A stretch of DNA of 62,242 bases, from contig CAJOEW010000010.1 of assembly GCA_905233525.1 (NCBI GenBank), forward strand, positions 1-62,242, given 5' to 3'. A program made the position numbers and the translations under genes. Below the pieces are notes generated by a model. That model saw nothing but the letters and a program-made list of their open reading frames with translations, did no database searches and had not been told where the DNA came from. This stretch comes from an uncultured Synergistales bacterium. Its GTDB lineage: Bacteria; Synergistota; Synergistia; Synergistales; Aminobacteriaceae. This document shows positions 3,033 through 51,250 of this stretch, one piece after another (the first letter of the stretch is position 1; every line of letters starts with the position of its first letter).

Positions 3033-3172
3033 TGAATCTTTTGATTTTTATGCCAGCGTAATATAAAATTCATTCAATGCTTACGCAAATTTCATTGAAA
3101 GGAAGTATTTACATGGGTACCAGCGGAGCTGAAAATACGCAATTAAGATCCGGCAATGCAACTTTAAACGAC

Positions 3173-3196
3173 AGCACGACAGCACGACAGCACGAC
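3173..3196. repeat. Tandem 8-bp repeat (AGCACGAC)x3 plus partial ACGAC upstream (3168-3172)
   Basis: Read directly: acgac agcacgac agcacgac agcacgac aagcac. Confidence 0.97.
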
Positions 3197-3216
3197 AAGC
3201 ACAAGGCCGTAAAGTC

Positions 3217-4371
3217 TTGATTGTTACTTTTCAAAGTGTAAATTACGGTACTGCTCTTCAGAATTATGCACTGACAACTAAATTAAATTCATTAGGTTTT
3301 GAAGCATACACATTATTAAGTTCTTTTGGTTTTGAAGGTTATTGCTTACATCGAACGGGCGTTAAGCAGCCTTTAGATATTTCGTTGTCAAAAGTAATTT
3401 CAATTGCAAAGAAAATAGTTAAAAGAATTTTGGGCTTATTGGGCGTTAAAAAATACAAGAAGAAACCTATAAGCGAACGCGAGAAGAAATTTATTGCCTT
3501 TCATAACAAGTATCTTTCTAAAGGAGTATTCATTCCTGAAGCTCAAGTTCTAAATCATGCGGATGCGTTTAAAGATTTTGAGTATGTTGTAGCAGGCAGT
3601 GATATGATCTGGAGTACTTTTACCGGCAAAATTGAGGAGCTTAGATATTTCAATTTGGATTTTGTAGAGCCTGAAAAGAGAGTTGCTTACGCTCCGAGTT
3701 TTGGACTTGCTGAATTTACTTTTAATTTTCTTGATCTGCGCAAAGAGTTGTTATCGAAGTTTAGAAAATTATCATGCCGTGAACAGAGAGGCTGCGATTT
3801 AATAAAAGAATTGACAGGCTTTGACGCTCAACACGTGCTTGATCCTACGATGTTGTTAAGTGCTGAACATTATAGGACTATTGCGAAAAAGCCGGCGTTT
3901 GAAATTCCAGAACATTACGCGCTAATATATCTCAGTGTTAACGATCTTACAGTGTTTAGACAAAGAGAATATGCCAATGTGATAAATGCTGCATGTCATG
4001 GAATCGAGACAATAAATTTATATTTCGATCCTAGTTTTTCAGTATTTTATGATGGTCGTGCAGAACAAATAGGCCCTGAAGAATTTTTATGGCTCATTGA
4101 TCACGCGGATATCGTAATAGAAAATTCATTTCACGGCACGGCATTTTCAATTTTGTTTCATAAAAACTTTATAGCGATGGACAGAGCCTCATCATACGAT
4201 ACCATGAAAATTAAGGACATATTATCAACTTTAGGCATACTCGACAGAAAATACGACAACGACGCGCGAATCCCTGAAGGCATTATTGATTACGAGGCTG
4301 TAGACAAAAAATTAAACGAGCTGCGCGAGACATCAACAAATTATTTGCGCGAGTGTCTAGACATAAAATAA
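3217..4371 (+). CDS. Polysaccharide pyruvyl transferase family protein (WcaK-like); true start probably ATG 3113, currently out of frame because of the 8-bp repeat
   Basis: VTFQSVNYGTALQNYAL N-terminus, ...VAGSDMIWS..., IENSFHGTAFSILFHKNFIAM. ATG 3113 has a good SD (aaaggaag-N7) but meets TGA at 3218 with 3 repeat copies. Confidence 0.8.
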   Translation: MIVTFQSVNYGTALQNYALTTKLNSLGFEAYTLLSSFGFEGYCLHRTGVKQPLDISLSKVISIAKKIVKRILGLLGVKKYKKKPISEREKKFIAFHNKYLSKGVFIPEAQVLNHADAFKDFEYVVAGSDMIWSTFTGKIEELRYFNLDFVEPEKRVAYAPSFGLAEFTFNFLDLRKELLSKFRKLSCREQRGCDLIKELTGFDAQHVLDPTMLLSAEHYRTIAKKPAFEIPEHYALIYLSVNDLTVFRQREYANVINAACHGIETINLYFDPSFSVFYDGRAEQIGPEEFLWLIDHADIVIENSFHGTAFSILFHKNFIAMDRASSYDTMKIKDILSTLGILDRKYDNDARIPEGIIDYEAVDKKLNELRETSTNYLRECLDIK

Positions 4372-15919: not shown

Positions 15920-18634
15920 GTGAAAAAATTATATGCGGTTATTTTTTTTATTATGCTTTTGTTTTCATCGTGCGCTTTCGCTGAAGAATACCCGTCGCGC
16001 GAAATTACAGGTATTGTAAAAATCGATGATAACGGCACTGATGATCCAATAGCTCGTAAGCTGGCAAATAATGCAGGAAAATATTTAGGCCAGCCTGTAA
16101 GCTTATGGACGTTCACAGAAAATTCAGGTACAGCTGCTTTAAAATATTTACAGAGCGCACAGCCTGACGGCTATACTTTTTACATAGGCAAAGAACGCGC
16201 GGATCTCACTGAAAATTCTGCGGCTTCAGTAAATCATCCTAATTACGATAATTTTACGTGCGTATATCTGATCGGTGAGTCTACTGCCGGAATAACAGTA
16301 ATGCCCATTCAAGGTAAAATGTCCGTGCAGGCTTTGAGACATGCGCCAAAAAGTTTTAAATATGTCCCTTACGGATTTATATACGGTGTTTACGTTAAGA
16401 GAGGTACGCCGGAAAGTGTGATATTAAAATTGGCTGACTCGTTTAAAAAAGCAGGTGAAGATCCTGAAATAAAAAACATGCTTGACGCAAATGATATAAG
16501 ATTCTCAGGATTAACAGATTCGGCAGCTCAAAATTATTTAAACGATTGGCGCGGAGGTACATTTGATAAACTCGTTGCAAGCGTTCCACGTAAGAAAGCC
16601 GTTAAAAAATCCGAGCCTGAAAAAAAATCAGAACCGGTCAAAGAATCAGAACCAGCCCAAAAATCACAGCCAGCTAAAAAATTAACAACTTCATCAGGAT
16701 TTCCTGCTCATGATATTGACGCTGTAGTTCAATGGGGAACAGGCGGAGCAACTGACGTTTTAACAAGAGCTGCAACAGAGATCGCTCAAAATAATCTGCC
16801 GGTCAAAATAAATGTCCGTAACGTCATGGGAAATAATGGATCCGTCGGACTTGAAGAAGTCTATTCAAAAAATGCTGACGGTTATACGCTCTTAATGGGA
16901 ACTGAAAATCCTGCGCTCTATGATGTTTTAGAAATGAGCCAGCACACTTACGAAGATTTTGAATGCGTTTATCTGATCGGTGATATAAGATCGCTTGTTG
17001 CTGTTTCGCCTTCATCAAAATATCACACGTTCTCGGATTTAATTAACGAAGCAAAAGCACATCCAGGTTCAATAACTTGTGGAACAACAGGCCGTGGCAG
17101 TTTAGGCTGGATGATGAACGCTTTGATTAAAGGAACTACAGGCGCGGATTTTGCTACAGCTGAATATTCAAATAATGCTGAGATCCGTGAAGCTGTTAAA
17201 AATGGCGAATGTGATATAAGCATAACTCTTGAACAGGAAGGCGTTAAAGATTTTCATGACGGCTCATTAAGATTTTTAACTATCATGGCAATTGAAGAGA
17301 GCGAAGAATATCCGGGTGTTGAACCTGTTGTAAATCAATATCCTGATTTTTTTGCGTGTCTTCCATGGGGATCATTCTTCGGAATTTATGCTAAAGGCGA
17401 TACAGATCCGGAAGTGTTAGATATTTTGAGCGAAGCTTATAAAAAAGCAGGAGATGATCAAAATTTCAGGAAGCTTTTAAAACATTACGGATTAAATTAT
17501 TTAGGTTATACCGGCGACGAAGCTAATAATTACGTATCAAGCTGGCGCAACAGAACTATAGACGCATTGATAAGCAGCGGCGCGGAAGATATTACAATGC
17601 CTGAAGAAAAAGTAAGAGTACGTAAAAAACGTCCTGCATCTGCTAAAAAATCAACACCGGCTCAAGATTCAACAACAGCTCAAAGCCCAACACCGGCTCA
17701 AAGCTCAACACCGGCTCAAGCATTAAAGACCTCTTCAGGATTCCCGGATCATGCCATAAACGGTATTATTCAGTGGGGACAAGGCGGCGTTACTGATGTT
17801 CTTTCACGTGCTTTAACTATAAGCGCTTCAAAATATTTGAACATGGATATAAAAATGCAGAACATAACAGGAAATGCAGGCGTAACCGGTCTCGAATATG
17901 TTTATAAACAAAAAGCTGACGGCTATACACTTTTAATGGGCGCTGAAAATCCTGCGTTATATGACAAAATCGGATTGAGCGATTTAACTTACGATGATTT
18001 TGAATGCGTATACTTAATCGGAGATGTTACGGCCGGAATAATTGTGAATCCTAATTCAAAATATCAGACGTTCACAGATTTAATACATGACGCTCTCGAA
18101 CATCCTGAACAAATAAAATGCGCTACAACAGGTCAAGGCAGTGTAGGCTGGGTTGTTGACTCTTTCATTAGAGGAGTAACAGACGCACGCTTCAATTTAA
18201 TTGAATATGACAGCACAGTAACAACAAAAGAAGCCGTAATGAAAGGTGAATGCGATTTTGCAGCGCTTTTGTTACAACAGGGTATCGATGAATTCAACGA
18301 TGGCTCATTAAGATTTTTAACAGTTCTTGCAATTGATGAGCATCCTAAATTACCTGGTGTTAGTCCGATCGTAAGCGAATATCCGGGATTCTTTGTATAT
18401 ATGCCTTGGGGACCTTTTTACGGAGTTTTTGCTAAGAAAGGAACTGATCCGGAAATATTAAAAGTTTTAGGCCAGGCTTATAAACAAGCAGGCGATGAAA
18501 AAGAATGCCGCGATCTGCTTGAAAAATATAACGTTAATTATTTAGGTTATGCCGGCGACGAAGCTAAGAAATATATTTCAAACTGGCGTGCAAATACTGT
18601 AGACGCATTGATCACAAGCGGCGCTCTTGATTAA
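15920..18634 (+). CDS. Exported protein with three tandem Bug/TctC-like (tripartite tricarboxylate transporter receptor) modules
   Basis: Signal peptide; modules 2 and 3 aligned by eye: SSGFPAHDIDAVVQWGTGGATDVLTRA / SSGFPDHAINGIIQWGQGGVTDVLSRA and NADGYTLLMGTENPALYD / KADGYTLLMGAENPALYD; module 1 is shorter. GTG start after ggaggtaatttttatc. Confidence 0.8.
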   Translation: MKKLYAVIFFIMLLFSSCAFAEEYPSREITGIVKIDDNGTDDPIARKLANNAGKYLGQPVSLWTFTENSGTAALKYLQSAQPDGYTFYIGKERADLTENSAASVNHPNYDNFTCVYLIGESTAGITVMPIQGKMSVQALRHAPKSFKYVPYGFIYGVYVKRGTPESVILKLADSFKKAGEDPEIKNMLDANDIRFSGLTDSAAQNYLNDWRGGTFDKLVASVPRKKAVKKSEPEKKSEPVKESEPAQKSQPAKKLTTSSGFPAHDIDAVVQWGTGGATDVLTRAATEIAQNNLPVKINVRNVMGNNGSVGLEEVYSKNADGYTLLMGTENPALYDVLEMSQHTYEDFECVYLIGDIRSLVAVSPSSKYHTFSDLINEAKAHPGSITCGTTGRGSLGWMMNALIKGTTGADFATAEYSNNAEIREAVKNGECDISITLEQEGVKDFHDGSLRFLTIMAIEESEEYPGVEPVVNQYPDFFACLPWGSFFGIYAKGDTDPEVLDILSEAYKKAGDDQNFRKLLKHYGLNYLGYTGDEANNYVSSWRNRTIDALISSGAEDITMPEEKVRVRKKRPASAKKSTPAQDSTTAQSPTPAQSSTPAQALKTSSGFPDHAINGIIQWGQGGVTDVLSRALTISASKYLNMDIKMQNITGNAGVTGLEYVYKQKADGYTLLMGAENPALYDKIGLSDLTYDDFECVYLIGDVTAGIIVNPNSKYQTFTDLIHDALEHPEQIKCATTGQGSVGWVVDSFIRGVTDARFNLIEYDSTVTTKEAVMKGECDFAALLLQQGIDEFNDGSLRFLTVLAIDEHPKLPGVSPIVSEYPGFFVYMPWGPFYGVFAKKGTDPEILKVLGQAYKQAGDEKECRDLLEKYNVNYLGYAGDEAKKYISNWRANTVDALITSGALD

Positions 18635-49908: not shown

Positions 49909-51108
49909 TTATGATAATTGAAATTCCTTTATGAGCTGGATTCTTTTATAAGCGACCGCTATCAACAGCCATAAATTTAATACAGTCGGAGGCAGCCACC
50001 AACCGCCGTCGATGAATGCGCAAGCCATATATATAAAAATTCCTCTGTATGTTCCGTTAAGTATAATATCATTTGTGATTAGCGCGTATCTTCTTAATCT
50101 TAGGCTTATAATCACAATTGGAAGCAGCCAAAATATAAAGCCTATTATCCCATATGAAAATAATATTGCTACATAAGTCATTTCATAAGCTCCGGCTGTA
50201 GCGTCTGTTCCGTAAAGTCCTATCATAAAATCGAAGACATTTCCATTTTCAAAGATCCATTTAAATGAATGGATCGCTCCAGCTGTTCGTCCTGCACCTG
50301 CCAAAAAAACTTTTGGATCGAGCGAATTTAAAAACCTTCCGATTTGAGGAACAAACACTGTAACAAAATAGCCAACCGAAAAAATAAACGCGGCCATGAA
50401 AATTATCGTAACAAGAAAACTTTTTGTTTTAACTTTACCTTTTGTGATCAGTCTTTTTGAAATTAAACATATATAAAGCAGCGCGCCTACCCATACAGTT
50501 CTTGAGCCTGTTAAAAAAACAACAGCACAACATGAAAACACGAGCAAAACGCTTTTTAAAATTCCGTGTTCCCGATGAAAATAAAGACTCAACAACGGAT
50601 AAAACATTAACATATTCACGCCGTATAGATTCCCGTTTTGATAAGTTGAGAAAATTTTCGAGCTGTCGCTGATACTATTAAATTTCATTCGCCACCAGTT
50701 GTTCGGAGCTAGTGAATAATCGCTGTAATTTACGGTTATGCCTGGAATTTGAATGGCTCCTATACCAAAAACAGCCTGCGCTATATCGTAAATGATAGTT
50801 ATTAAAATGCACGTGATAATAATTTTAACGAGTGTTTTTAATTGGCCTTCAGTCTTAATCATCATGATCAGCACCGGAAAAATTAAAGGATAAATTGAAT
50901 TTGCGGTTATATCTGTAATTGCTCCGCGCGGTCCAGGTAATTCGACACAACCGGCTAATAACGGAACTGACACGCGCAAAAAACAGTAAAGCGGAAATAA
51001 CAAAAACATAAACATAAAATTTCTATCGCTGATTTTAATGCGCCATGGTTTTACAAAAATTGCGATTAGTAAAAAGAAAAATAATATATTACCTACGTAT
51101 ACAGGCAC
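49909..51108 (-). CDS. O-antigen ligase/polymerase-like membrane protein (Wzy/WaaL-like); frame stays open upstream through the 7-bp repeat without a canonical start
   Basis: Polytopic; internal WRMKFNSISDSSKIFSTYQNGNLYGVNMLMFYPLLSLYF...FLTGSRTVWVGALLYI; upstream in-frame ISTLIFLVVIFNVLIPKAGFKIGG looks like the missing TM1. Confidence 0.75.
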   Translation of the reverse strand: MPVYVGNILFFFLLIAIFVKPWRIKISDRNFMFMFLLFPLYCFLRVSVPLLAGCVELPGPRGAITDITANSIYPLIFPVLIMMIKTEGQLKTLVKIIITCILITIIYDIAQAVFGIGAIQIPGITVNYSDYSLAPNNWWRMKFNSISDSSKIFSTYQNGNLYGVNMLMFYPLLSLYFHREHGILKSVLLVFSCCAVVFLTGSRTVWVGALLYICLISKRLITKGKVKTKSFLVTIIFMAAFIFSVGYFVTVFVPQIGRFLNSLDPKVFLAGAGRTAGAIHSFKWIFENGNVFDFMIGLYGTDATAGAYEMTYVAILFSYGIIGFIFWLLPIVIISLRLRRYALITNDIILNGTYRGIFIYMACAFIDGGWWLPPTVLNLWLLIAVAYKRIQLIKEFQLS

Positions 51109-51183
51109 TCCTCCGATTTTGAAACCTGCCTTAGGAATTAAGACATTAAAAATTACTACCAGAAAAATGAGCGTGCTTATCGG

Positions 51184-51250
51184 TTCTGCGTTCTGCGTTC
51201 TGCGTTCTGCGTTCTGCGTTCTGCGTTCTGCGTTCTGCGTTCTGCGTTCT
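51184..51250. repeat. Tandem 7-bp repeat (TTCTGCG on + strand / CGCAGAA on - strand) x9 plus 4 bp
   Basis: Counted: 67 bp = 9 x 7 + TTCT. Confidence 0.95.

Follow-up and report, generated by a model that had tools for sequence, protein, structure and literature searches.

Within the window (the whole 62,242-nt stretch of DNA from an uncultured Synergistales bacterium that was analyzed here), an open frame for a polysaccharide pyruvyl transferase follows a short leader and a tandem tract of 8-bp units (Table 1). The frame matches PF04230 over positions 1-278 of 280 (E=7.3e-26; 92.1 bits against a curated cut-off of 25.3), encodes an intact domain of 384 aa, and remains open upstream across the tract, back to TGA 3130. 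The tract itself is a perfect tandem of a unit not divisible by three and, with its partial flanks, extends over 3168-3202 as 4.2 units (score 61, Tandem Repeats Finder). It lies within a putatively translated 5' part of the gene, as judged from the SD-like motif and the start codon of the leader. A preliminary description had placed the gene in a phase-OFF frame beginning at ATG 3113 behind a good SD, with three repeat copies and a stop at TGA 3218, and each of these features, including the 7-nt spacer, was confirmed.

Table 1. Features of the window that bear on the proposed switch
Feature	Position	Strand	Remark
Promoter-like TTGATT-N17-TAAAAT, 5' of leader	3041..3069	+	Consensus scan 9/12; near chance level alone
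SD-like aaaggaag	3098..3105	+	7-nt spacer to ATG 3113; kept in most paralogous leaders
TTTACA-N17-GAAAAT	3108..3136	+	Sequence scan; weak counterpart of TTGACA-N17-TATAAT of other leaders
Leader MGTSGAENTQLRSGNATLND, type A cassette	3113..3172	+	Eight copies in genome
Tandem tract (AGCACGAC)x3	3173..3196	+	Three perfect units
Polysaccharide pyruvyl transferase frame	3199..4371	+	PF04230; in phase with ATG 3113 at 2, 5 or 8 copies
TGA ending the leader frame at three copies (OFF)	3218..3220	+	Translation
423-aa membrane-protein-like frame behind second tract	49909..51182	-	No Pfam match; out of frame with inferred leader (OFF)
Second tract (GCAGAAC)x9.7	51183..51250	-	Behind TTGACA-N15-TATAAT and inferred TTG start

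Reading frames at the transferase gene

When the sequence was translated from ATG 3113 with 0-8 copies of AGCACGAC, two, five and eight copies yielded products of 416, 424 and 432 aa, respectively, running into ...RKVLIVTFQSVNYGTALQNYAL, whereas 0, 1, 3, 4, 6 and 7 copies yielded products of only 27-43 aa. With three copies, as assembled, a 35-aa peptide ends at TGA 3218; four copies likewise give 35 aa, ending ...STTSTRP at a TAA. In translation of the sequence, the copy number of the unit thus sets whether a full-length or a shortened protein results. The assignment of two or five copies to an ON state and of three or four to an OFF state, as originally proposed, was reproduced, and eight copies can be added to the ON class.

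The transferase could instead be made constitutively from TTG 3217 or another internal site, and the tract would then be irrelevant to its expression. This codon, which the preliminary description had itself singled out as the counter-case, is in frame and has AAGG about 10 nt upstream. However, the paralogous transferase at C16 carries TTA at the aligned position, which makes a start at TTG 3217 unlikely, and eight loci share the conserved leader with its SD and ATG. We therefore consider internal initiation very unlikely and infer that the leader start is the one used.

In other parts of the window, 18-bp imperfect tandem repeats, whose length is a multiple of three, were observed at 16604-16682 and 17651-17719 and presumably encode protein repeats. 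The GCAGAAC unit of the second window tract was found again at C24.

Shared leaders and tandem tracts across the genome

The assembly contains tandem AGCACGAC at six sites, each time behind the same leader as that of the window gene, and the numbers of copies (2, 3, 3, 4, 7 and 10) differ between paralogous loci of one assembly rather than at one locus across cells. A search with the leader DNA recovered two further copies that carry other units, one of 10 bp at C50 (AAAGCACAGC) and one of 11 bp at C3. The eight type A leaders are identical from ATGGGTACCAGCG to GCTGAAAATA except for one base. The genes behind them are mutually unrelated: PF04230 in the window and at C16, GT8 at C2, SDR at C34, DUF4422 at C43, UbiA at C50 and DUF2142 at C3, with the leader at C28 running into a contig end. 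Because these loci are near-identical duplicates with differing copy numbers, tract length has changed after duplication, and the six 8-bp cassettes support the phase-OFF reading of the window gene. The leader DNA had no match in 42 congeners beyond a weak one of 38 bp in G014. The exact leader pattern was likewise without a match in collections of genome contigs and viral contigs, so at that sensitivity there is no sign of a phage or wide horizontal source.

The arrangement extends beyond type A leaders. A scan for perfect tandem tracts (period of at least 5, at least three copies, at least 20 nt), which covered all but 66 of the 1,640,345 bases (1.64 Mb) of the genome, returned 35 tracts, versus 0, 0, 0, 1 and 1 in order-3 Markov genomes. 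Two tracts at C24 form one interrupted array, giving 34 loci, and five more loci, at which the tract is short or has been lost (C34:14253, C4:7094, C29:4338, C29:9309 and C48:374), bring the total to about 39. The evidence supports the preliminary description on the window gene, which was the one gene it saw out of these loci. Periods were 7 bp in 23 tracts, 8 bp in five and 5 bp in three, with one tract each of 10, 11, 13 and 14 bp. None of the 35 is divisible by three, which also supports the phase-OFF reading of the window gene; the preliminary description had noted that the window unit is no multiple of three, like those of classic contingency loci. In the coding orientation all 19 distinct units are free of stops, as against 11 of 19 in antisense (P 0.06 against shuffled units). 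Pfam matches behind the tracts are nearly all to glycan or surface functions (GT1, GT2, GT8, DUF4422, DUF6625, PF04230, MBOAT, methyltransferases, sugar transferase and FkbH), with a few that are less clear-cut (radical SAM, MaoC, DUF2284 and FrhB).

Thirty loci could be called, eight as ON (seven fused genes and the coupled gene at C50) and 22 as OFF, with calls at the second leader type described below resting on inferred starts, often TTG or GTG. Eight of 30 is near the one third expected from random phases.

The broken frame of the transferase in the assembly could also reflect decay of the gene or a mistake in assembly, and for seven of the 35 tracts a contig end is indeed no more than 310 nt away (C5, C6, C28, C46, C47, C53 and C58; P 2e-5). 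Tracts in this position mark either breaks at dispersed repeats or mixtures of tract lengths. Decay or error is nonetheless highly improbable for the window gene, given that its domain is intact, that many loci, including several that are ON, have the same layout, and that a 24-bp tract falls well inside one sequencing read. Programmed ribosomal frameshifting on the tract, by which both products would be made at any copy number, appears extremely improbable. Apart from the out-of-frame arrangement itself, nothing was found in its favor; the 19 different units share no common slippery site, and the same unit is found in frame at sister loci that have other copy numbers.

Possibly coupled loci, promoter-like elements and relatives

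At most loci, including that of the window gene, leader and tract are fused to the enzyme. Nine loci are instead detached, with the enzyme's own start 47-118 nt past the tract. In eight of these nine, one of the three frames of the leader ORF stops at or near the enzyme start (offsets -14 to +8), within re-initiation distance, and the remaining frames end early at most of them. Finding at least eight of nine by chance under shuffled spacers has P 6e-4; C29:9309 and C48 resemble the detached loci and were left out of this nine-locus spacer test. Such a geometry suggests repeat-controlled translational coupling, in which a single frame of the leader would deliver ribosomes to the enzyme start. 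Some of these putatively coupled genes have an SD of their own and might rely on the leader only in part.

Most tracts outside the type A loci follow a second, shorter leader type, in which a TTGACA-N16-19-TATAAT element spans the SD-start spacer and the first codons, with its -10 touching the tract. Near-perfect TTGACA-N17/18-TATAAT elements of this kind, inside the leader ORF and with the -10 abutting the tract, were seen at C9, C20, C25, C34:1522, C45, C46, C58 and others. A short motif near AATTATGCC recurs just 3' of the tract in both leader types (for example at C3, C14, C21 and C22:51154). A transcript from the second-type element would be predicted to begin in the tract and to be devoid of the leader start.

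These elements, which match the sigma-70 promoter consensus, raise the possibility that the tract acts on transcription or on the mRNA, as the 7-bp repeats upstream of Haemophilus influenzae hmw1A and hmw2A do, and that the effect on frame is incidental. By position, the tracts sit past the -10, within the leader ORF. Sites matching at least 11 of 12 consensus positions abut tracts in 16 of the genome's 117 cases, and perfect sites do so in 7 of 14, counts behind which there are fewer independent cases since the leaders share descent. However, a spacing device would tolerate periods divisible by three, and none occur; it is because of this period rule that we rank a promoter-only effect low. 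Further, the coding orientation of the units is free of stops, and at the window gene the element is weak and separated from the tract by 31 nt. At C9, the fused GT8 gene has no in-frame ATG just past the tract, so a transcript beginning in that tract would be without a start. Taken together, a purely transcriptional or mRNA-level role is quite improbable.

Related loci belong to Synergistaceae or Synergistales of red deer, reindeer and goat, and to one 'uncultured Fretibacterium'. A perfect 5- or 7-bp tract lies within 200 nt 5' of the transferase match in 9 of 10 Synergistaceae homologues, versus none of 64 from other taxa; some of the loci compared share a genome. A fifth PF04230 gene of the bacterium itself (C49) has no tract and serves as an internal control. 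Both results lend further support to the phase-OFF reading. The leader of congener G033 (GTACCAGGCGAAGCCTGAAAATAT) is recognizably the same as that of the window gene, yet carries a 5-bp unit. Tracts are also present in sampled stretches of congeners G033, G041 and G035, two of them with period 6. Separately, GGAGGTA/TACCTCC repeats of 3.3 copies, themselves SD-like, were noted at L268 and L270 (G035) and at L280 (G007); the one in G007 sits just upstream of a PF04230 gene.

We consider it very likely that the window tract is a translational ON/OFF contingency switch, OFF as assembled, and one of about 39 similarly built glycan loci composed of shuffled leader-repeat cassettes. Ribosomes would begin at ATG 3113 and, with two, five or eight units, would pass through the tract into the transferase; at other copy numbers they would terminate no more than about 10 codons from the tract. 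Slipped-strand mispairing would presumably alter the copy number, and one population would then be expected to contain cells with different pyruvyl modification of a surface glycan. The leader cassette, comprising SD, start and tract, appears to have been recruited before many glycan enzymes, either as an in-frame fusion or as a short ORF upstream, one frame of which would end at the enzyme start. At three copies (24 bp), the tract is short for one that switches rapidly, and this counts against a switch at the window gene. More speculatively, the leader-repeat cassette could spread as a module that glycan genes capture by fusion or coupling. Its built-in promoter element, with the -10 in contact with the repeat, could be part of the device, for example by DNA opening at the tract that raises slippage, and unit length, tract and promoter could be co-selected as a general switch; this wider proposal is tentative and at present rather unlikely.

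Comparison with known phase-variable systems

Our findings suggest that the bacterium carries dozens of random on/off coat switches. Most phasomes that have been studied well belong to a small number of host-restricted pathogens. With about 39 switch loci in 1.6 Mb, that of this uncultured gut member of the Synergistaceae, whose relatives are mostly from ruminants, would rank among the denser ones. Provided that the switches work, a single strain could display very many surface states, which bears on escape from gut phages and from immunity. Ordinary annotation would label most such genes as truncated or mis-started. A frame-switching contingency locus is of a known kind; in the literature covered, which took in few subscription journals, we found no paper on phase variation in Synergistota, and neither repeat-switched translational coupling nor genome-wide shared leader cassettes were found described.

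In the lic genes of Haemophilus influenzae, one repeat unit recurs at several loci, as it does here. The tetranucleotide contingency loci of H. influenzae similarly switch surface-glycan genes by frame, through repeats in the 5' coding part that are not divisible by three, and number 12-14 tracts in most strains, compared with 35 in 1.64 Mb here (PMC2651432). Unlike those tetranucleotides, the units described here are 5-14 bp long, in most cases 7, and unrelated enzymes have entire leaders in common (5' region, SD, start, codons and tract). The hmw1A and hmw2A genes also have 7-bp tandem units near a promoter, located about 100 bp upstream of the genes and within the promoters, where they modulate expression (PMC2651432). 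In contrast, the tracts of this genome are inside the leader ORF and obey a frame rule.

The phasomes of Campylobacter and Neisseria consist mostly of homopolymer tracts that arose gene by gene, unlike the shared leader cassettes with long units found here. They nevertheless resemble the present case in that a small genome carries a large number of switched surface genes (PMC6321876, PMC5953494). Finally, the detached loci resemble the translational coupling of overlapping genes, where one ORF stops at the point where the next one starts (PMC3711429). They differ in that a tract-bearing leader takes the place of the first ORF, and its stop falls at the gene start in a single copy-number class. 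With the same leader before different enzymes and at different copy numbers, the genome offers a natural test set for the influence of tract length, unit length and coupling on switching.
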